Assembly (NCBI RefSeq): GCF_002723935.1
Contig: NZ_BEWM01000003.1
Coordinates: 62,001 to 126,000 of the forward strand
Direction of reading: 5' to 3'
DNA from: Gluconobacter cerinus
GTDB taxonomy: Bacteria > Pseudomonadota > Alphaproteobacteria > Acetobacterales > Acetobacteraceae
DNA: 64,000 nucleotides
The position numbers and the translations under genes were made by a program. Shown here piece after piece: positions 44,375-57,089 of the stretch. Every line of letters starts with the position of its first letter. The first letter of the stretch is position 1. Below the pieces are notes generated by a model that made no database searches, was not told the origin of the DNA, and worked only from the letters and a program-made list of their open reading frames with translations.

Positions 44375-44807
<433 letters not shown>

Positions 44808-44828
44808 GTGAACACCAACGAACCCAAG

Positions 44829-45107
44829 ATGAAAGAGCGTCATCGTTTGTCTCGCAGAGGCAATTGGGATTGGTGTGTGATGAATTCGATATGGCCTCCT
44901 CGTCGCTCTGAAGACATCTTTATAACGCGTCGTGAAGCTTCTGAGCGGCTACGCGTGTCTCTCTCCACAATCGACAGATACGTCGCAGCCGGCGAACTAG
45001 AACGTTTTAAGATCGGTCCGCGCCGGACTCTTTTTCGATTGCTTGATATCGAAAAACTCGTGCGTCATGACGACAGTCACTCTCATGCCGCCGCACAGCG
45101 CCATTAG
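44829..45107 (+). CDS. HTH (MerR-like/excisionase-type) DNA-binding protein
   Basis: The 92-residue product contains a winged-helix HTH_17 type domain, FITRREASERLRVSLSTIDRYVAAGELERFKIGPRRTLFR, followed by LLDIEKLV. This domain is used by AlpA/Xis-type excisionases and small regulators of islands. Its place beside the tRNA repeat fits a directionality factor (inference). Starts at GTG 44808 or ATG 44880 are possible, and the domain lies after all three. Confidence 0.65.
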   Translation: MKERHRLSRRGNWDWCVMNSIWPPRRSEDIFITRREASERLRVSLSTIDRYVAAGELERFKIGPRRTLFRLLDIEKLVRHDDSHSHAAAQRH

Positions 45108-46185: not shown

Positions 46186-46674
46186 CTACTGGCTGGAATC
46201 GACCAGGCGCTTAAACTGGATGGCCGGCACGCCGGAGGCGTGATCGAACAACTCAGTGCGCGGACCTCCAATCACCTTGTCGGCAACGTGAAGCGACGCC
46301 ACGTTCTCGCGATCGACCACGGCCTCGAAATAGAGCTTCGTAATGCCGTTCCGGCAGAGCCCGCGGCATAACTCGTCGATCGCAGCCATCGCGACGCGCT
46401 GCGCGCGCCCGTTGCTTCGACGCGATTCTATCACTGCATAGCCGAGTTGGAAGGTCGGCACGCCCTCGATAGGTTCGGTCAGGGCGAGGAGCGCGACAGC
46501 CGTGACCTCGCCGCCTTCAACCAGCGCATAGGTGTATCTTGGTGCGCCTGCGGGCTGGTCGACATGCAAGAAGACGTCCGGATAGAAGGCCGCCGGCTGA
46601 ACACGAATCTCCTGCTGCGCGATCGCTCGGCGGAAATCGATCAGAGCGTTCATCGGATCGGCCATGCTGGGCAT
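46186..46674 (-). CDS. GNAT-family N-acetyltransferase
   Basis: The 162-residue protein has the GNAT fold. TYALVEGGEVTAVALLALTE forms the central strands, FQLGYAVIESRRSNGRAQRVAMAAIDEL the acetyl-CoA pyrophosphate-loop region (unusually without a clear Q/RxxGxG/A), and KLYFEAVVDRENVASLHVADKV the C-terminal helix. The target is unknown. ATG at 46674 has GGAAGG seven bases upstream. It lies 99 bp downstream of the large SMC-like ATPase gene on the same strand and shares its GC-rich composition, so the two probably form one operon. Confidence 0.75.
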   Translation of the reverse strand: MPSMADPMNALIDFRRAIAQQEIRVQPAAFYPDVFLHVDQPAGAPRYTYALVEGGEVTAVALLALTEPIEGVPTFQLGYAVIESRRSNGRAQRVAMAAIDELCRGLCRNGITKLYFEAVVDRENVASLHVADKVIGGPRTELFDHASGVPAIQFKRLVDSSQ

Positions 46675-46773
46675 CCTATTTCCTTCCATCGGGACCACAA
46701 CCAGCAGGTAGCAGAGCTTGGCCTAATGCTCCGTCGCATCAACAGCTGCCATTCGGCGCCGGACAGGATAGCA

Positions 46774-49700
46774 TCATGAAGGTAGCTCGAACAGGATCCC
46801 GACGACCTCCATCAGCGCGGTCAACTTGGGCAATCCCTGTTCCCCGCCGAAACTCAGCAACTCAGCTGACGTCATTCCATCTGGGTTGAGGCTCTCGAGA
46901 ACAACAAACTGGCCATGTGGCCGGAACCGCTTGAGATATCGGGTACCAGTATCATCAACGGCGATCACCAATCGCCCCTCCAATTGTGCGATCGCGGCAC
47001 TCGTCATCACGACCGAATGGGTGATGATGTACTGACCATCCAGCGCGACGGGTTCGGCACTACGACCTGCGACCTGAAACAATCTGGCGTCCTTGAGCAT
47101 CGCGTGGACCACCGCGAAATTGGTGAGCGCAACGAACTCCACATTGTCCGCCTGGGGCGGCACGGGCAATTGGTGTTTCGCAAAGAGCGTCCCAATTATC
47201 TTACGCATATGGATCTGCTCCTTCGGAGCGATTACAGGTTGCGCAAGCGACGTCGGATCAGTGGCTTGGCCAGTCAGAACGGCGATGTGTGGATGTACCT
47301 CAGTTTCGTTATACCGGCGTGCGAGTAGCTGGTCCTGAAACGTGGTGACGACGAGATTCCTCTCATGCACTTTTGCATAGTTGCTCACTATGATCACGTC
47401 GCCGACATCAGCCACCGGGTCGAGCGTTCCCGCAGCCAACTGAAAGGCGGCGTGGTTGTGTAGAGTGACCCGCTGCGCTTCTGATAAATCTGCCATCGTG
47501 ATCAGGCCATCGCCGGCACGCCCATCGGTTCTCGCTGCCGCAGCGATCCCTGTATGGAAAAACGTGGCCGCCCTGAGATCGGCAGCATCGGTCGTCGGGA
47601 ATTCCACCACGTTATCCATCCAGGCAAACAAGCGCGGCTCGCCCACATGGGCTTCGAATTCGGAAAATATCTTAAAGCAGGTGTGAAGCCGTGATTCGAC
47701 CTTTTCTTCCCAGAATTTCCTTACATCGATCGCCTGCGCGACACCGATTGTACCATCAAAATGATGATGCGCTTCGTTGATATATTGCATCGCCTTACCA
47801 CCACCACCGCCTGCGATATATTCGAGCAACTTGCCGAATGACGGGTTGGTGAATGGGGGCACGCTCGCAGTACGCCGCGCCTTCATCAGCGTGGCCAGTT
47901 CGTCCAAGGTCTTATTGACGATGTCTGGATCCTCGGCGCGAAGCATAATTTTGAGGAGATCTTCCAGATAGATGCGAACCTTCTGGACATAGGCGTGCCC
48001 CTTCTGGTCGTCGTTCGTGGCCTGTGCATCAGCGAAAGTGCTGGAGAGGGAATCTCCGAATATGATCGTCGCCACCTTGGAAGCGTCACACAGGCGTACA
48101 ACGAGGCCCTGCTGACCGGGCAGCTTCTCCGAGTTGACCAGCATCTGAAAAAACTGGCGCTCATGGGTAATTATGAGGATCTGCGCCCCCGCAATGTCGA
48201 CCTGATCCGCCTTACCCATCCTCGCGATCTCCTCGGCCCACTTGCGCTTGTTACGCGGATCGAAGGTCACCTGAGGATCGTCCAGCAGCATCAAAGGAAA
48301 CGGATTGGCCCCAGCGTCAATGATTGCCTGCTCGCGCACGGCGAGCACGAAAGCCCATAGGATCGCGCGCAACCAGGAGCTGTTGGCGACCACGGACGCG
48401 TCGACCCGCACGCCAGGATCGAAGCTGCCAGCGATGAGGACAGACTTCTTCGCCAAGACGGCATCCTCGAACGACAGTCTCTCCTTAAAATGAATTCGCC
48501 CTAGGATTGCCTTCATGCGGTCGGACAGCGCCGAGATCGATCCGGCAGTTTGGGCGGCGACGAGCAGACGCAGATCTTTCAGAGGCACCAGCGCCGTCGC
48601 TATCGCTTCCCGAACGAGTTGCTGCTCGTGGATCGGAAGCCACAGATCGGCTTCCTTCGCGGCGGCTCCCAAATCCTTGGCGAGTTGATCGAGCGGGGCG
48701 GCGCGCTCCAAGGCTGCCTCAAGCGCCTGAATCTTGCCCTCAATGCAGTCGGCCGGATACATTCCGTCTTCTGCCGCACTGCCCGTCACCTGGCGCCAAG
48801 CGGTCGCGAATTGGGGACGATGCGTCTGCCACCACATAGCCAATGCCATCACACGTTCTACCTTGGCGATGTAGCTCAGCAACCCGGCCGTCGCCGGGGG
48901 CATAAGCGGATCTGGTGCCGTCATGGAGTGCACGAAGGCAGGAAGTTTCTGAGCTAAGCTATCCGCGGCAGCCGAGGCAAATACAGCTATACCGGTCAGG
49001 ACAGTCGAGAACGGCGCTCCTTGGACAAATACCTGCTTGACGGCCTCCGAAAAAGCGTGACGCGGCTGCATTGTTGACAAGGTGTCGAAATACGCGTCAA
49101 CGGCCCGCGGTACGAGATCGCGGATCGACTTCTCGAGTTCAGTACAAACGTCGGCCAATCTACGCTCTGCGACGGATGCAGCCCGCTTCAGGGTTGCAAG
49201 CTCGTCGGCGAGCGCAGCGCGATTTTCGCCGGTCAGTTTTCCCTCACACAAAGGACAATCAGCACTCTCATGAGAATGCTGTGCCGGCTCGTAGAAACGA
49301 GATGCGAGCGCCTTCAACCGAAGCTTTTGATCCTCGGCCTGTCGCTTGTCCCATAAAACCGCTTCGGCGAGCCGGGCCCTTACGTCTGTAAGCAGACCTG
49401 GGAGCGCCTGAAACGGCGTGTCCCCCGGAGCATTTGCGAGCGCCTTCCAAGCCGAAAACACGTCGGAGCCTTTGAAACTATCTTCCAAGATCGCACGCGC
49501 CGAATTAACCGCGGCCTTGATCCTACCTCGATCGTCCGCATTCGCCGTGTCTAGCGTCGAAGCGATCTCCGAGGTCAGCACGCCGAGATATCCGGCAGCC
49601 TGGCCCGAAGCCGTCTTCGCGACATCGCGGAGTTCCTGAGCGTAGCCCTTGTCCTCGCGCTTGCCCTCAACCTTCAAGTTGAAGTCGATTGCGACCGCTG

Positions 49701-50712
49701 TTCGGGACGCACGTTCAAGAGCGGCTTTAAGTCGCGCCGCGATGGTGTCACCCCCCTTGTCTAGCGCATATTTGAGAAAGCGCTTGGATCGGTGAGTGAG
49801 ATTGGCCGCGCCATCGGCAATAGCAGCCAGTTGATCGAGCCCAGTCAGGAGCTTCACCGCTTCATAGATCGACTGGCTTCCCCCGCCGAAACCGATACGG
49901 GCAAGGCGAGCAGGCATGAGGAGCCCGACTTCCAAAAGTTGGGGGGCTATCAGGAGGTCGGCCGAAATATCGACTTCGATTACGGGTTGGACGCCCGGCG
50001 CGGCAACCAGTCTGCGATATGCGTGGGCAGTGTTACCGGTCAGATCATGGAAGGTCAGACGTACCCAAGTCTCGGCAGTACCGGCCAATGCCATTGCGCT
50101 GTTCGGATAGGACACAAAGGAAGGCCAACTCCCGATCGTTGAGCCAGCATCGTTTTCGACAGGAGATCGGACCCCCGTTTCAAGATACAGCCCATCCTGA
50201 TCACGACAACGGTAGCCGGTCATCGCCCAGATGATCGCGCTGGTCAGCGACGTCTTACCTGATCCGTTCTGCCCTTCAAGGCACCAGTTTTCTCCGTCGA
50301 ACGGCACAGAAAAACTAGGCCCCCCGATCTGGTTCAATCCCCCGAAGCCGCTGGTTTCAATTCGGGTGAGGCGCCAAGGGCCGACATTCGTCGCCGTCCC
50401 GCTCTGTTCTGTCTCGGTTGCAGGGTCGATAGTCTCATGCTCCCAAGCCGCTACCAAGCCGTCAAAGAGACTCTCGTGCGCGTCGGCGACTTTGGATTGG
50501 TCGCAGGTGAGCAGGAAGCGAAACAGTCGCCGCGCACTAGCAGAGGCGAGATGTACCGAGCCTGCTTTATGGTCGCCGAACTTGTCCCAAGTGAGCGGCA
50601 GACCAGATAGAAGCTGCTGTTTTGCCTCGTAGAATGAAAGCACCATATCCTCTCCCGCGGCGGCAATATAAAGCTGCGACAGCTTGTCAAGCCAGAGCAA
50701 CAAAAGCTTCAA
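46774..50712 (-). CDS. SMC/Rad50-like ATPase fused to tandem LexA/S24-like domains
   Basis: A 1312-residue protein. An N-terminal helical region (1-110) precedes Walker A GQNGSGKT (147-154). The coiled-coil arms meet at a zinc-hook CPLC (486-489), then a signature-like SSWLRAILWAFVLAVRE (778-794), Walker B PLMLLDDP (806-813) and the switch His in IITHE (850) follow. After a helical linker come two S24/LexA-like beta domains. The first (about 1090-1180) has GTLDP where GDSMEP is expected (Thr1096). The second (1214-1312) has GRSAEP (Ser1218) and YLKRF (Lys1261), keeping the Ser/Lys peptidase dyad. The frame starts with TTG at 50712; ATG at 50646 with GGGAGAGGA upstream is an alternative. Its role is unknown; phage defence is inferred from architecture and island context. 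Confidence 0.8.
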   Translation of the reverse strand: MKLLLLWLDKLSQLYIAAAGEDMVLSFYEAKQQLLSGLPLTWDKFGDHKAGSVHLASASARRLFRFLLTCDQSKVADAHESLFDGLVAAWEHETIDPATETEQSGTATNVGPWRLTRIETSGFGGLNQIGGPSFSVPFDGENWCLEGQNGSGKTSLTSAIIWAMTGYRCRDQDGLYLETGVRSPVENDAGSTIGSWPSFVSYPNSAMALAGTAETWVRLTFHDLTGNTAHAYRRLVAAPGVQPVIEVDISADLLIAPQLLEVGLLMPARLARIGFGGGSQSIYEAVKLLTGLDQLAAIADGAANLTHRSKRFLKYALDKGGDTIAARLKAALERASRTAVAIDFNLKVEGKREDKGYAQELRDVAKTASGQAAGYLGVLTSEIASTLDTANADDRGRIKAAVNSARAILEDSFKGSDVFSAWKALANAPGDTPFQALPGLLTDVRARLAEAVLWDKRQAEDQKLRLKALASRFYEPAQHSHESADCPLCEGKLTGENRAALADELATLKRAASVAERRLADVCTELEKSIRDLVPRAVDAYFDTLSTMQPRHAFSEAVKQVFVQGAPFSTVLTGIAVFASAAADSLAQKLPAFVHSMTAPDPLMPPATAGLLSYIAKVERVMALAMWWQTHRPQFATAWRQVTGSAAEDGMYPADCIEGKIQALEAALERAAPLDQLAKDLGAAAKEADLWLPIHEQQLVREAIATALVPLKDLRLLVAAQTAGSISALSDRMKAILGRIHFKERLSFEDAVLAKKSVLIAGSFDPGVRVDASVVANSSWLRAILWAFVLAVREQAIIDAGANPFPLMLLDDPQVTFDPRNKRKWAEEIARMGKADQVDIAGAQILIITHERQFFQMLVNSEKLPGQQGLVVRLCDASKVATIIFGDSLSSTFADAQATNDDQKGHAYVQKVRIYLEDLLKIMLRAEDPDIVNKTLDELATLMKARRTASVPPFTNPSFGKLLEYIAGGGGGKAMQYINEAHHHFDGTIGVAQAIDVRKFWEEKVESRLHTCFKIFSEFEAHVGEPRLFAWMDNVVEFPTTDAADLRAATFFHTGIAAAARTDGRAGDGLITMADLSEAQRVTLHNHAAFQLAAGTLDPVADVGDVIIVSNYAKVHERNLVVTTFQDQLLARRYNETEVHPHIAVLTGQATDPTSLAQPVIAPKEQIHMRKIIGTLFAKHQLPVPPQADNVEFVALTNFAVVHAMLKDARLFQVAGRSAEPVALDGQYIITHSVVMTSAAIAQLEGRLVIAVDDTGTRYLKRFRPHGQFVVLESLNPDGMTSAELLSFGGEQGLPKLTALMEVVGILFELPS

Positions 50713-51404
50713 CTTGGCGCGGCCAAGTCAGACCCTACTCGGCCAGCTCTAGCCACAGTGCTTATAAAACTGCCTCTTACTCAATAGCGGTTGTCAGATT
50801 GGACCAAATCGATGGCAGCATCTCAGGATGATCCGCTCATCACGTGAACGACTTCAATGGGGCGCGAAGCTATCATGGGCCTCAACGGCACGTATGGCCG
50901 CTTTCCATTCATTCTATCCTACAGCGGACAGACGGCTCCCCCCCCCCTGAACTGCCTGTCCGTTTGCCGGAAGCAAGCAGACAGGCAGCCGTCGCCTACA
51001 TCTGGGACACAAAACTGCCTTGATGGTTTTCCGCATTGTGGACATGACAGGCTCAAAATCTCGTTGCCACTTTGGGCCTGAAACGGACCGTCTGGTTCCG
51101 GCAAGAAATACCGCAAAATGGTCACTGAATGCGGGGCCGCCGCAGTCCACCATCGAATCTAACAAGACATTGGCCAAAGTATAGCGACTGCCTAATATGA
51201 ATTGAAAACCGATCATCTGGTGCGGAACACTTACTATAGTAAGCAATTACATCTATTTCGTGGCTAGCGGCAATGTATCGATGCAGTCGGTATTTGTCGC
51301 AACGTACAAGCAGCCAGCCAGTAAGTATTGTTTTGATACAGACCGTTCTTATATTGAGGTCAAACTAACATTTGACATCCTAGCCCAGTGAATTCTGTTA
51401 CCCG
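50713..51404. other. Non-coding region with repeat copy A
   Basis: There is no gene I can support in these 692 bases. It contains a run of ten C and a 9-bp stem-loop (see the separate repeat entry), and the rest is AT-rich without recognisable features. Promoters for the SMC gene (leftward) should lie here. Confidence 0.5.
50875..51070 (+). repeat. Poly-C/stem-loop repeat, copy A
   Basis: A run of ten C (50938-50947) is followed by CTGCCTGTC...GACAGGCAG, a perfect 9-bp inverted repeat (50952-50988). Upstream AGCTATCATG and TGGCCGCTT, and downstream GGACATGA, are shared with copy B at 52905-53110. The two copies, about 200 bp each, bracket the PIN-like gene pair in direct orientation. Confidence 0.6.
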
Positions 51405-51737
51405 TTAGACAAAGTCGCTAGACGTTGGAAGTGCCGTAGCGGAAGCCCTCGTGAATTGTAGGTCAAAATGGACAAGCATCATTTCAATAAAACGGCCATG
51501 ATAAACACCGTAAACCATCTTCGACATTTTTTTCGTCTTCGTGCCAAGGATATTAAAGGCTATGTGGTCGTCGAATATTGTGGGTCGCATCCAAGCTAAA
51601 TGCGCCCACTGAGTAGGAGAGTGAGTGAAATCGCCGTCACTATCGACTTTCCATGTCTCGACCTCTCCTGTATTTATTGCCGTTCTAATGCTTTCGAGTA
51701 GTTCATGTGGATTGTTGCAATAGACTCGAACAGCCAT
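51405..51737 (-). CDS. Hypothetical protein downstream of PIN-like gene
   Basis: This 110-residue protein has no domain I recognise. It is compact, mixed alpha/beta by eye and rich in aromatic residues, without signal or membrane segments. Its start follows the stop of the PIN-like gene by one base, so the two are co-translated. It could be an inhibitor or partner of the nuclease-like protein (inference from linkage only). Confidence 0.6.
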   Translation of the reverse strand: MAVRVYCNNPHELLESIRTAINTGEVETWKVDSDGDFTHSPTQWAHLAWMRPTIFDDHIAFNILGTKTKKMSKMVYGVYHGRFIEMMLVHFDLQFTRASATALPTSSDFV

Positions 51738-51738
51738 T

Positions 51739-52704
51739 TTATGTACCTTTATAATCAGGAGTAGTTTTAGTCTTATCGATTATCGATGGCGAGTGCTTAT
51801 CCTCACTTGAGGAATCTAATCGAGGCACATCAGGCTTTGCACGCTTAGCTTCCTCCTCTTCGCGCTCTTGGGCGACTCGAGCCTCAACTTCTTCGATAAC
51901 CTTTTCACCAAATTGCGCTTTTAGGTATGTTTCGGCGGAAGATAAAAAGCGATCGGATGGATAGAACCATACCCTCTGCCCAGAGAGTTTCTTGAACTCC
52001 AACAAAAGTTCTGGCCTGGGTCCAATCGTTCGGCCGCTCTCTATCCGCCACCAATCAGCTTTGGCATCGTCCGTGACGAATATTAGGTCGCGTTTCTCCG
52101 TGGCCGCAATGTTAATTAGCTGCGCCCATGCGACGTAGTCGCCATAGCATTCAGGTGGTGCTTTGGTTTTCGCATCTGCAAACCCTGGAGGGATGCTTGT
52201 CCTAAACCGGTCAGCCGCTTGGACGTGCAGCTTAGACAATTCAGATTCGCTTGGTTCCTGGCCGATTTTTTCTGAGATCGCTTCATGAAGCGAGTTCACG
52301 TAATCGTCGTTGGAGATCAGGCCCTCCATCTGCTTCCGACTAGTGGACAACTCTTCCTTTATCAACGCTATCGCTTCTTGTGCTGGGGCTGACAGATGAG
52401 GGTGCTCGCTTTTGGGGCGACAGCCTTGCTCTATTTTTTCCAATGCATGATATGCGGCCTGATATTTATTTGCTTCCGCAACGATGACCTTTGCACGGTT
52501 CCGCATGAATTCGAGTGCAAACTGATGGGGGAGGCGAACCTTGTCGGCTTGCATTATAAAACTAAGAAGAGCCTTACTTGTTTCCTCGGAATACCGATAA
52601 ATACTAAGCAAGACGTTCGCATCAAAAGAGAATATTCCATTCTCCCACATGCTGCGAAATTCAGCCTCGGTAGGTGGAAATAAATGATGAAATTGCTCTT
52701 TCAT
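51739..52704 (-). CDS. PIN-like domain protein (PIN_8 type)
   Basis: This 321-residue protein carries a PIN nuclease-like core with acidic residues in the expected places: Asp28 in FSFDANVLL, Glu65 in FALEF, Asp189 in YGDYVAW and Asp212/213 in IFVTDDAKADWW. A long helical insert lies between residues 75 and 170, and the C-terminal 50 residues are charged and disordered. PIN_8 proteins often occur in accessory and defence-rich regions and are presumed RNases. It is the first gene of a two-gene unit bracketed by the poly-C repeats. Confidence 0.75.
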   Translation of the reverse strand: MKEQFHHLFPPTEAEFRSMWENGIFSFDANVLLSIYRYSEETSKALLSFIMQADKVRLPHQFALEFMRNRAKVIVAEANKYQAAYHALEKIEQGCRPKSEHPHLSAPAQEAIALIKEELSTSRKQMEGLISNDDYVNSLHEAISEKIGQEPSESELSKLHVQAADRFRTSIPPGFADAKTKAPPECYGDYVAWAQLINIAATEKRDLIFVTDDAKADWWRIESGRTIGPRPELLLEFKKLSGQRVWFYPSDRFLSSAETYLKAQFGEKVIEEVEARVAQEREEEEAKRAKPDVPRLDSSSEDKHSPSIIDKTKTTPDYKGT

Positions 52705-53429
52705 AGCTACCTAGATGATTCCAGTGTTAAAATTCTGTGTATTACGTCTAAAACTCGATTCAAGACGCTCTCGTTTCAACCTCTATCACTATAATATAAT
52801 ACATATCTATAAGATTGGCCACGGGCCGTAATGGGCGTAGAACATCACTATCGTAGTCCGCTATTAAGCACCTGCTCTGAGGCCAGTAATGATCAGTATG
52901 GGCGCTTAGCTATCATGAACGTTGGCCACACGACTGGCCGCTTGCTAATTTTCTGCCCAGCAGCCGACTTTCTGCTTTCCCCCCCCCCCTAACTCGCCTG
53001 TCTGCTCAAGAGAACCAGAACAGACAGGCTGCACTCGCTCTCTTTTCAGACATACAGTCTCTCGTACCACTCTCCGTGTAGCGGACATGAAATGTCCCAT
53101 GGTCTGCCGGTCAAAGCGGATAGCGAACTCGCGTATGCATTCTACCCATTCAAGGTTTGAATCTCATCAGCAGGACTGAAGTCGACGAAACCGAGAACTG
53201 CACCTACGCTATAGCCCTCTGAATTCAAGGCACGAACAAGTACAGCTATGGGTGGGATGACCATTCGTCGCGATAACAAAGCCTTCCTTTGGTTCTCAAG
53301 AGCATGATGCCAGGCAGAGTGTAATGGACGCGGCCGTTGACGATGAGCTCCGCCATAGTCCACACTCTTTTCCTCCGGCAGTAAGATCTTATTTATTTTG
53401 ATTAAGCAGCGAAAATTTGAAAGAGACCA
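52705..53429. other. Non-coding region with repeat copy B
   Basis: These 725 bases lack a confident gene. The part 53142-53350 on the minus strand encodes short pieces in different frames (for example ALNSEGYSVGAVLGFVDFSP and MAELIVNGRVHYTLPG) that may be a decayed gene. I do not recognise its family. Copy B of the repeat lies in the middle. Confidence 0.4.
52905..53110 (+). repeat. Poly-C/stem-loop repeat, copy B
   Basis: A run of eleven C (52979-52989) precedes GCCTGTCTG...CAGACAGGC, a perfect 9-bp inverted repeat (52996-53029). Order and flanks match copy A with several substitutions, showing an old duplication rather than a recent transposition. Confidence 0.6.
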
Positions 53430-54554
53430 ATGTATCCAGACAATATAATTCGTCCTGTACCACTTAAAAGTCAGGTTTTTCTTGACCAAAGAGGCGAGTC
53501 ATTATCACGTTTCACGCTGGCTGCTTTCTTATTACTTTCGGGTGCCTTGTTCGTAGAAGACGAACGGCACTTAGAAGATCGTCTTGATCTTCCCACATCT
53601 GAAGAGCTTGAGTTTCTTGGAATTAATGCTGAGGTGCGTGAGACCGTGCCACGTGGCGCATTTAATCTTAGGCAGTTTTCGGTAGACGATTCGGATAACG
53701 TTCCTTCATCTGCTTTGGCTAGTTTAGCGGCAGAGGTAAATGAGCGAGGCAATCCTCGCGATGCAGCGCGTCTCGTTGCCTTGGGATGCAATTCAAGCGA
53801 TGAGTTGGTCCGAATTTGTGCCTTGGGGTCTGCTGTTGATTTCTTCCGTCTGGAGACCATCAACATCCACCGCCAGCTTGTATGGTTTTTTGACAACGCC
53901 CTAGATCTCGATACATTCGAACTTCTCTTTGTGTTGATGGCCCGCGTTTTTCAGGTCGCCGCGATGGGGAATCTCTCCCCACCGACAAACGTACCGACCA
54001 CGACCCCAACTGGCTTGATGGCCGTCCACGGCACGGTACTTCCCTACTCTCAGGCTAATAGGCCCGAATGGTCTGTCCCGCCAAAAGGTAGCCTCTTCTC
54101 CCACATAAAGACCTTCCGGAACGATATTTACGGATCACCTGACTTTTTCCGATGGGAGGGCGGATACACCGACTATGCCCGCGAAGTTGCGATCAATAGT
54201 CTGTGCGACTGGATCAACCGCAGGAGTCTTAACGGCATCGACGTAGTGGCGCACAGCCACGGTTGTAATGTGGTGATGGGCAGTACTTCGATCAGCACCA
54301 ATTTCAGAAAAATCGTAATGTTGAGCTGCCCAGTTCATTGGGGAAAGTACAGTCTGCCAGCGGCCATGATCACAAATGATGTAGTTTCGATTCGTACTAG
54401 GTTTGACTTTGTTATCATGATGGATCGTGGCGGTCAGAGATTTCCAAATGGAACGATCAAGGATGTCATCCTACCATTCTGGTTCACATCGCACAGCTCG
54501 ACCACCAAACCAAACATATGGAGATCACAAAATTTGGACCAATATCTTCGCTAA
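53430..54554 (+). CDS. Lipase/esterase-like alpha/beta hydrolase with helical N-terminal half
   Basis: The 374-residue protein has a helical N-terminal half (1-185) that may be a degenerate HEAT-type repeat (RGNPRDAARLVALGCNSSDELVRICALGSAV). The C-terminal alpha/beta-hydrolase domain has an oxyanion-type LMAVHGT (His200) and a nucleophile elbow VVAHSHGCNVVM (Ser276). Acid and histidine candidates lie in the last 80 residues. There is no signal peptide, so it should act in the cytoplasm. DNA composition is below host GC. A lipid- or ester-cleaving effector is possible but unproven. Confidence 0.65.
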   Translation: MYPDNIIRPVPLKSQVFLDQRGESLSRFTLAAFLLLSGALFVEDERHLEDRLDLPTSEELEFLGINAEVRETVPRGAFNLRQFSVDDSDNVPSSALASLAAEVNERGNPRDAARLVALGCNSSDELVRICALGSAVDFFRLETINIHRQLVWFFDNALDLDTFELLFVLMARVFQVAAMGNLSPPTNVPTTTPTGLMAVHGTVLPYSQANRPEWSVPPKGSLFSHIKTFRNDIYGSPDFFRWEGGYTDYAREVAINSLCDWINRRSLNGIDVVAHSHGCNVVMGSTSISTNFRKIVMLSCPVHWGKYSLPAAMITNDVVSIRTRFDFVIMMDRGGQRFPNGTIKDVILPFWFTSHSSTTKPNIWRSQNLDQYLR

Positions 54555-56259: not shown

Positions 56260-56390
56260 GACAATCCCTTGGACAAAAATGTCGGTTTCATGCGAGGATC
56301 TGACCATGACGAGTCACGGGCCACGCAACATTTCAATGCCAAGAGATACGGTTTTCCGACTTCCATATCAAGCGGAATATCGTATTCATG

Positions 56391-56408
56391 CCTCATTTCC
56401 GAATGAGG
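56391..56408. promoter_or_regulatory. Candidate repressor operator (7-bp palindrome)
   Basis: CCTCATT-TCCG-AATGAGG is a perfect inverted repeat between the divergent genes at 56259 (minus) and 56451 (plus). Position and symmetry fit an operator for the dimeric HTH-S24 repressor. Confidence 0.5.
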
Positions 56409-56450
56409 ACCCTCCGCGTGCCCCGACATTCCAGGCGAAAGCGTAAACTC

Positions 56451-57089
56451 ATGGACGACCAGATCCGCCTGATGCGCGAGCGCGGTGAGCGCCTCCGCGA
56501 AGCGGCGCAGAGTATTGGCATCACCCATGCCGCCAAGGCGGCGGGCGTGCCGTATACGACCCTGAGAGACTATATGAATGGCGGGGAGATGAAATTCTCC
56601 GCCCTTGCGTCACTGGCCCGGGTCTGCGGTGTCTCTCTGGACTGGATCGCCTTTGGCACAGTTGGCGGCTCACCTTCCGGCACGACGGCGGTCCAGACCA
56701 CCTCGACCCGTCAGATTGTCGTGCCCTGGTATGATCATCATGAAGACGGCCTGCGGATTGGTCGCGACTGGTTGCAGAGCGTCATCCCCCGGGACCTCAC
56801 GTCCCTCTGCCTCATCAGTAATGCGGGGGATGCGATGGAGCCGACTTTGTCCTCAGGCGATCTGGTCATCGTGGACCGGAGCGTCACGACCGTGACGGGC
56901 AGCGCGCTCTATGCGCTGGAGAGTGCGGGTGCCGTGCTGATCCGTCGCCTTGATCCCAAACTCGGTGGTGGCGTCCGGGTGATTGCCGACAATCATCGCT
57001 ACCCGCCCCAGGACGTCGAGGCTGATCGCCTGGACTGCTTCAAGCTGCTCGGCGAAGTGGTCTGGATCGGCGGCGCGCCTCATCCCTGA
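56451..57089 (+). CDS. HTH-S24 (CI/LexA-like) repressor with degenerate catalytic dyad
   Basis: This 212-residue phage-type repressor has an N-terminal helix-turn-helix (about 14-65, ITHAAKAAGVPYTTLRDYMNG). The C-terminal S24 domain has AGDAMEPTLSSGDLVIVDRS and VLIRRLDP. In LexA, UmuD and CI the motif is GDSMEP and the partner is Lys 37 residues later. Here Ser is Ala128 and Lys is Arg165, at exactly 37-residue spacing. Self-cleavage on RecA activation should therefore be impossible. ATG at 56451 was chosen because the operator palindrome lies just upstream. It probably controls island genes. Confidence 0.8.
   Translation: MDDQIRLMRERGERLREAAQSIGITHAAKAAGVPYTTLRDYMNGGEMKFSALASLARVCGVSLDWIAFGTVGGSPSGTTAVQTTSTRQIVVPWYDHHEDGLRIGRDWLQSVIPRDLTSLCLISNAGDAMEPTLSSGDLVIVDRSVTTVTGSALYALESAGAVLIRRLDPKLGGGVRVIADNHRYPPQDVEADRLDCFKLLGEVVWIGGAPHP

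Follow-up and report, generated by a model that had tools for sequence, protein, structure and literature searches.

The 64,000-nucleotide stretch of Gluconobacter cerinus DNA considered here (the window, taken at its full length) carries on its minus strand, at 46774–50712, a single open reading frame (ORF) of 1312 codons beginning with TTG. The gene product is a Rad50-like ATPase with a zinc hook, ending in two LexA/S24-fold domains in tandem; Pfam, an AlphaFold model, and structure comparison all support this architecture, and bear out the fusion proposed in a sequence-only reading that preceded our analysis. Translation probably proceeds from the ATG at 50644–50646 (first base 50646), since an identical protein stands in the database as a record of 1290 amino acids (aa), the length that this start gives. 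All parts of the gene described below lie on the minus strand.

Homologues of this protein were collected in two sets. Among 7999 candidates scored, 333 proteins matched at E ≤ 1e-3; the 120 listed, which are mostly full-length (about 1290 aa) with identity down to 47%, make up the set of close homologues, five of whose C-termini are truncated or garbled. A plasmid search recovered further relatives with the same layout, at about 21–29% identity over their full length in the six measured, and 23 plasmids carry a match to the ATPase. A search with an alignment that included these distant relatives returned, among the matches listed (120 of 277), proteins of the close clade only. The second set, of 23 proteins, takes in the incomplete L012 and, for the broken loci L013 and L028, their C-terminal ORF pieces; it excludes the partial or broken L014, L016, L036/L038, and L041, the short P-loop matches L021–L024, and 15 of the 23 plasmid records. 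Duplicates were dropped (L001, L017, and L042, which equal the window; L018 and L037, equal to L010; L008, equal to L028; L020 and L026, equal to L040; and L035, equal to L039).

As in Rad50 and SMC proteins, a long helical insert bearing a CxxC zinc hook (CPLC, residues 486–489; 49246–49257) separates Walker A (GQNGSGKT, residues 147–154; 50251–50274) from the Walker B/D-loop segment (LLDDPQVTFD, residues 809–818; 48259–48288). These elements are well conserved: where the aligned close homologues have a residue at the position, Lys153 of Walker A is kept in 118 of 118, Cys486 in 118 of 119, and Cys489 in 119 of 119. Canonical Rad50/SMC-like ABC ATPases have an LSGGE-type signature and a catalytic Glu after Walker B; here, however, the signature region reads NSSWLR (residues 777–782; 48367–48384), which is unusual, and Asp812 replaces the Glu in all 120 close homologues. 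Pfam AAA_13 is not among the matches of the window protein to E 1.

The C-terminus comprises a LexA-like domain 1 (residues 1036–1168; 47209–47607) and a LexA/S24 domain 2 (residues 1169–1312; 46777–47208). Domain 2 is the catalytic half, with Ser1218 (47059–47061) as predicted nucleophile and Lys1261 (46930–46932) as predicted general base. Neither residue varies among the 23 aligned proteins, even at about 21% identity; Ser and/or Lys is missing in five of the 120 close homologues, all of which end or derail before the residue(s) concerned. The sequence-only reading had taken this pair for the dyad of a peptidase, an idea that survives both the predicted LexA fold and the comparison of homologues. 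Its observation that domain 1 has lost the serine also stands: the position is occupied by Thr1096 in the window protein (Thr in 19, Ser in three, and Trp in one of the 23), and the Lys position is likewise replaced, by Arg1132 (Arg in 22, Gly in one). What that reading overlooked is that this "dead" domain keeps a cleavage loop of LexA type, GIAAAA (Gly1055–Ala1060; 47533–47550), in which the P1 candidate Ala1059 is present in 23 of 23 proteins and residue 1058 is always Ala or Ser. The equivalent of Ala1059 in domain 2, position 1178, is Ala in only 10 of the 23 (elsewhere Asp, Thr, Val, and others, with Phe or Tyr preceding in all) and in 76 of 118 close homologues. Because the dyad is invariant in domain 2 and the P1 Ala in domain 1, the pair looks like a LexA divided into protease and substrate, and the retention of a cleavage-site loop in domain 1 points, at the level of sequence, to self-cleavage.

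Profile and structure comparisons are consistent with a duplicated LexA fold. Pfam Peptidase_S24 was matched at E ≤ 0.1 by 17 of 23 domain-2 pieces and nine of 23 domain-1 pieces, and hhalign relates domain 1 to domain 2 with probability 72.9 (E 3e-5). Against PDB, 15 of the 16 matches of the domain-1 profile were LexA or UmuD, all weak (best E 0.047); the domain-2 profile recovered neither, and its match to signal peptidase I (E 0.15) ranked after a glutaredoxin. In the AlphaFold model, structures of LexA in its cleaving state align from the loop of domain 1 through the end of domain 2, a pattern that is not specific to that state. LexA cuts between Ala84 and Gly85 using Ser119 and Lys156 (PMC3834820). 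The resemblance to LexA, lambda CI, and UmuD thus extends to the fold, the Ser-Lys dyad, an [A/S]-A loop following a Gly, and similar spacings. The present protein differs in that the fold occurs twice in tandem, the dyad belonging to one copy and the invariant P1 Ala to the other; in that the fusion partner is an ATPase rather than a DNA-binding repressor domain; and in that P1′ is not Gly, a residue absent from that column of the alignment.

Between the ATPase and the LexA-like pair lies a helical middle domain (about residues 880–1025; 47638–48075), likewise overlooked by the sequence-only reading. Its only three invariant residues are Arg913 and Glu917, in RIYLE (Arg-x3-Glu; 47962–47976), and His983, at the end of NEAHH (Asn979 to His983; 47764–47778). 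Each is present in 23 of 23 proteins, and in 119, 120, and 120 of the 120 close homologues, respectively. The anticodon nucleases PrrC and RloC have a similar catalytic triad; judging from invariance and pattern, the middle domain is probably an endoRNase of HEPN/RloC-like type, its active site formed by Arg913, Glu917, and His983. The RloC motif is Arg-X3-Glu-X36-52-His, often with Ser preceding the His, whereas the Glu–His gap here is 57–71 residues. Nor is there an invariant Arg five to seven residues ahead of His983, as an Rx4-6H motif would have; the Arg-x3-Glu of PrrC type stands in its place. Sequence searches gave no proof of RloC or HEPN homology for the middle domain, and no sequence relative of the AAA_13 protein was found in PDB either. 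PADLOC returned scattered weak matches across the middle-domain alignment (22 rows, L012 excluded), the best being PDC-M02B (7.8e-5) in two of 22 members; PDC-M02B was absent from the PADLOC matches at E ≤ 1e-3 of seven full-length distant relatives.

Several known systems share parts of this design. RloC and PrrC, as far as the available texts describe them, are single polypeptides with a C-proximal Arg-x3-Glu...His domain, joined in RloC to a zinc-hook Rad50-like ATPase; the window protein differs from them in lacking an AAA_13 match, in its longer Glu–His spacing, in its size (about 1290 aa, compared with 658–897), and in its tandem LexA-like unit, which those texts do not mention for RloC. 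In PADLOC, the window protein matches mad3 best (E 5.2e-11), followed by LmuB (5.2e-9) of the Lamassu/ABC-3C systems; LmuB is matched at 8.6e-19 in L040, and Foldseek also returns LmuB chains. Unlike Lamassu, however, sensor and putative effector occupy one protein, about twice as long as the roughly 650 aa of LmuB, and neither LmuA nor LmuC appeared among six scanned neighbors in the window or 20 chosen neighbors of relatives, other loci having been read as ORF lists only. We found no published system with an ATPase–LexA/S24 fusion at title and abstract level, in a partial coverage of the literature, in keeping with the sequence-only reading, whose author knew of none; neither LexA nor S24 is mentioned in PMC13092281 or PMC12839542. 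What is new here is the combination of three parts in one protein, and the division of LexA.

LexA-type self-cleavage is known in repressors and polymerase subunits. Our best reading of the present protein, and a tentative one, is a DNA-damage-triggered single-protein RNase toxin gated by such cleavage, probably for defense. The Rad50-like ATPase would sense DNA ends or abnormal invader DNA, a role suggested by what is known of the family and by analogy with RloC, which is switched on by DNA breaks via its ATPase (PMC3874168). Activation might come from the ATPase, from a RecA filament as in LexA, or from both; domain 2, carrying the dyad, would then act on the loop that domain 1 offers as substrate, cutting after about Ala1059, between the RNase and LexA domains, in a one-way step. 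The cut would part the ATPase–RNase from its C-terminal cap and so turn the RNase on. Turning it off seems less likely, because a cap that has to be cut away would guard against accidental toxicity. The more specific proposition—that a duplicated LexA peptidase, one half enzyme and the other substrate, converts DNA sensing into RNase release as an irreversible, SOS-like suicide switch against phages or plasmids—is possible but rather doubtful. Disrupted copies of the gene occur, by a transposase-like ORF in L028/L008 (L028 7001–12093), a frame change in L013 (9935–13865), and a stop in genome G007 (L041); such disruption might be expected of a costly or toxic gene.

The same dyad could serve a true effector protease, in which DNA sensing by the ATPase frees domain 2 to cut proteins of the cell or phage, with the loop of domain 1 as an inhibitory pseudo-substrate. 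We consider this unlikely: LexA-fold repressors and UmuD cleave themselves or their dimer mates; self-cleavage accounts better for the conserved P1 Ala of domain 1; and no single partner protein is common to all loci. Of equal standing is a LexA-like tandem that does not cleave at all, but docks or senses, for example on RecA filaments, and so couples DNA damage to the ATPase–RNase. The unconserved P1′ and the dead dyad of domain 1 would suit such a module, as would the binding of RecA filaments by LexA, in which its C-terminal domain is described as taking part; yet the invariance of Ser and Lys at about 21% identity would be unexpected without chemistry.

The genomic surroundings bear on the possible defense role of the proposed toxin. 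The ATPase gene sits past a tRNA-Ser(cga) gene (44375–44464, plus strand), the probable edge of an island, and an adjoining gene for an excisionase-like helix-turn-helix protein (44808–45107, plus strand). G+C falls to 0.47 at 44–46 kb, and is host-like (0.57–0.60) in the ATPase gene itself; of 51 direct-repeat families, the 20 largest include no attachment repeat of the tRNA end. Several relatives have, no more than about 4 kb away, genes for AbiL (L002), PDC-S31 (L005), AbiEi (L013), AbiEii (L031), a UG17 reverse transcriptase with SLATT (L032), Shedu (L034), and PDC-S37 with DarG (L030). The 20 neighboring genes scanned with PADLOC, 16 of which matched at E 1e-5, several only partially, were picked by eye, and we therefore claim no enrichment. 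The anti-phage module suggested by the sequence-only reading retains its defense setting, near several relatives, but not a general acetyltransferase partner (see below). Most of the named hosts are Alphaproteobacteria; some records are gammaproteobacterial, burkholderial, or nitrospirotal. A viral origin was considered and rejected: no relative appeared in pattern-based IMG/VR scans, by protein or by alignment, or in 50,697 phage records.

Slightly less likely than a protease effector or a non-cleaving module is a role in DNA repair in place of toxicity: the protein would be a Rad50/SbcC-like partner of an adjacent SbcD/YhaN-like nuclease pair, its lifetime limited by S24 in the SOS response. 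A YhaN-type ATPase and an SbcD-like nuclease adjoin five of 13 main-clade genome loci (L003, L005, L008/L028, L011, and L012; the flanks of L003, L004, L009, and L012 are short on one or both sides). We take these neighbors to be YhaN and YhaO; their Pfam matches are AAA_27 and Metallophos. As a control, 11 genomes were searched: a strong AAA_27 gene (>100 bits) is present in five and stands beside the ATPase/S24 gene in four of these. Two distant relatives likewise have SbcCD genes next to them. In the YhaN/YhaO pair, unlike the window protein, ATPase and nuclease are separate, and two members scanned with Pfam have no S24 match. Against a repair role, we know of none for the Arg-Glu-His set in repair proteins. 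The gene is also rare and patchy: matches at E 1e-3 occur in eight of 289 genomes of the class, full-length in two (the window's own and G148), broken in G007, distant in G279, and as short P-loop stretches in four, while at E 1e-20 two of 395 genomes of the order and two of 398 of the phylum match, the window's own counted each time. Finally, it is found on plasmids and in an island, close to defense genes. At L002, L010, and L015 the next downstream gene is on the opposite strand, so the protein may act alone.

A small GNAT-like acetyltransferase gene (46186–46698, minus strand) lies 75 nt downstream of the ATPase gene, and the sequence-only reading regarded the pairing as a potentially conserved one. 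Across 34 loci, some partial, the GNAT profile matches only beside the window copy and an 88%-identical Sphingomonas plasmid copy, and we reject GNAT as a general conserved partner; the pairing is local, found in the closest relatives only, and the YhaN/SbcD-like pair is the commoner neighbor. A two-gene anti-phage unit with GNAT as substrate or effector is thus very improbable, despite the shared strand and order in the window and at L027, given that the other loci examined lack a GNAT match and that, of 20 plasmids listed from the 33 with GNAT relatives, 19 fall outside the 23 with an ATPase match. On a Pseudomonas plasmid (L047 5261–6471) a GNAT relative directly follows a phospholipase D-family gene, which suggests that the small GNAT pairs with different effectors.

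Other features of the window lie upstream of the ATPase gene. A PIN_8 nuclease gene (51405–52704, minus strand; PF18476, E 1.2e-49), with a 110-aa ORF behind it, is possibly a second defense module. The sequence upstream of the ATPase gene (50860–51060) resembles that upstream of the PIN gene (52900–53110), including a run of at least 10 G. A 374-aa ORF (53430–54554, plus strand), located where the G+C of the island is lower, matches nothing in Pfam (to E 1) or in PADLOC and NCBIfam (to E 0.1). A helix-turn-helix and S24-like repressor (56388–57089, plus strand) reads by eye GDAMEP and LIRRLD, and is probably non-cleavable, because the dyad Ser and Lys both look replaced.

If the reading of the protein as a self-cleaving RNase toxin is correct, a built-in LexA-type cleavage that gates a toxin would tie SOS logic directly to immunity. 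It would also supply an irreversible activation step, for which we found no precedent among descriptions of RloC- or Lamassu-like systems; with enzyme and substrate placed in separate copies of a duplicated domain, LexA chemistry would have a natural reporter within one molecule.
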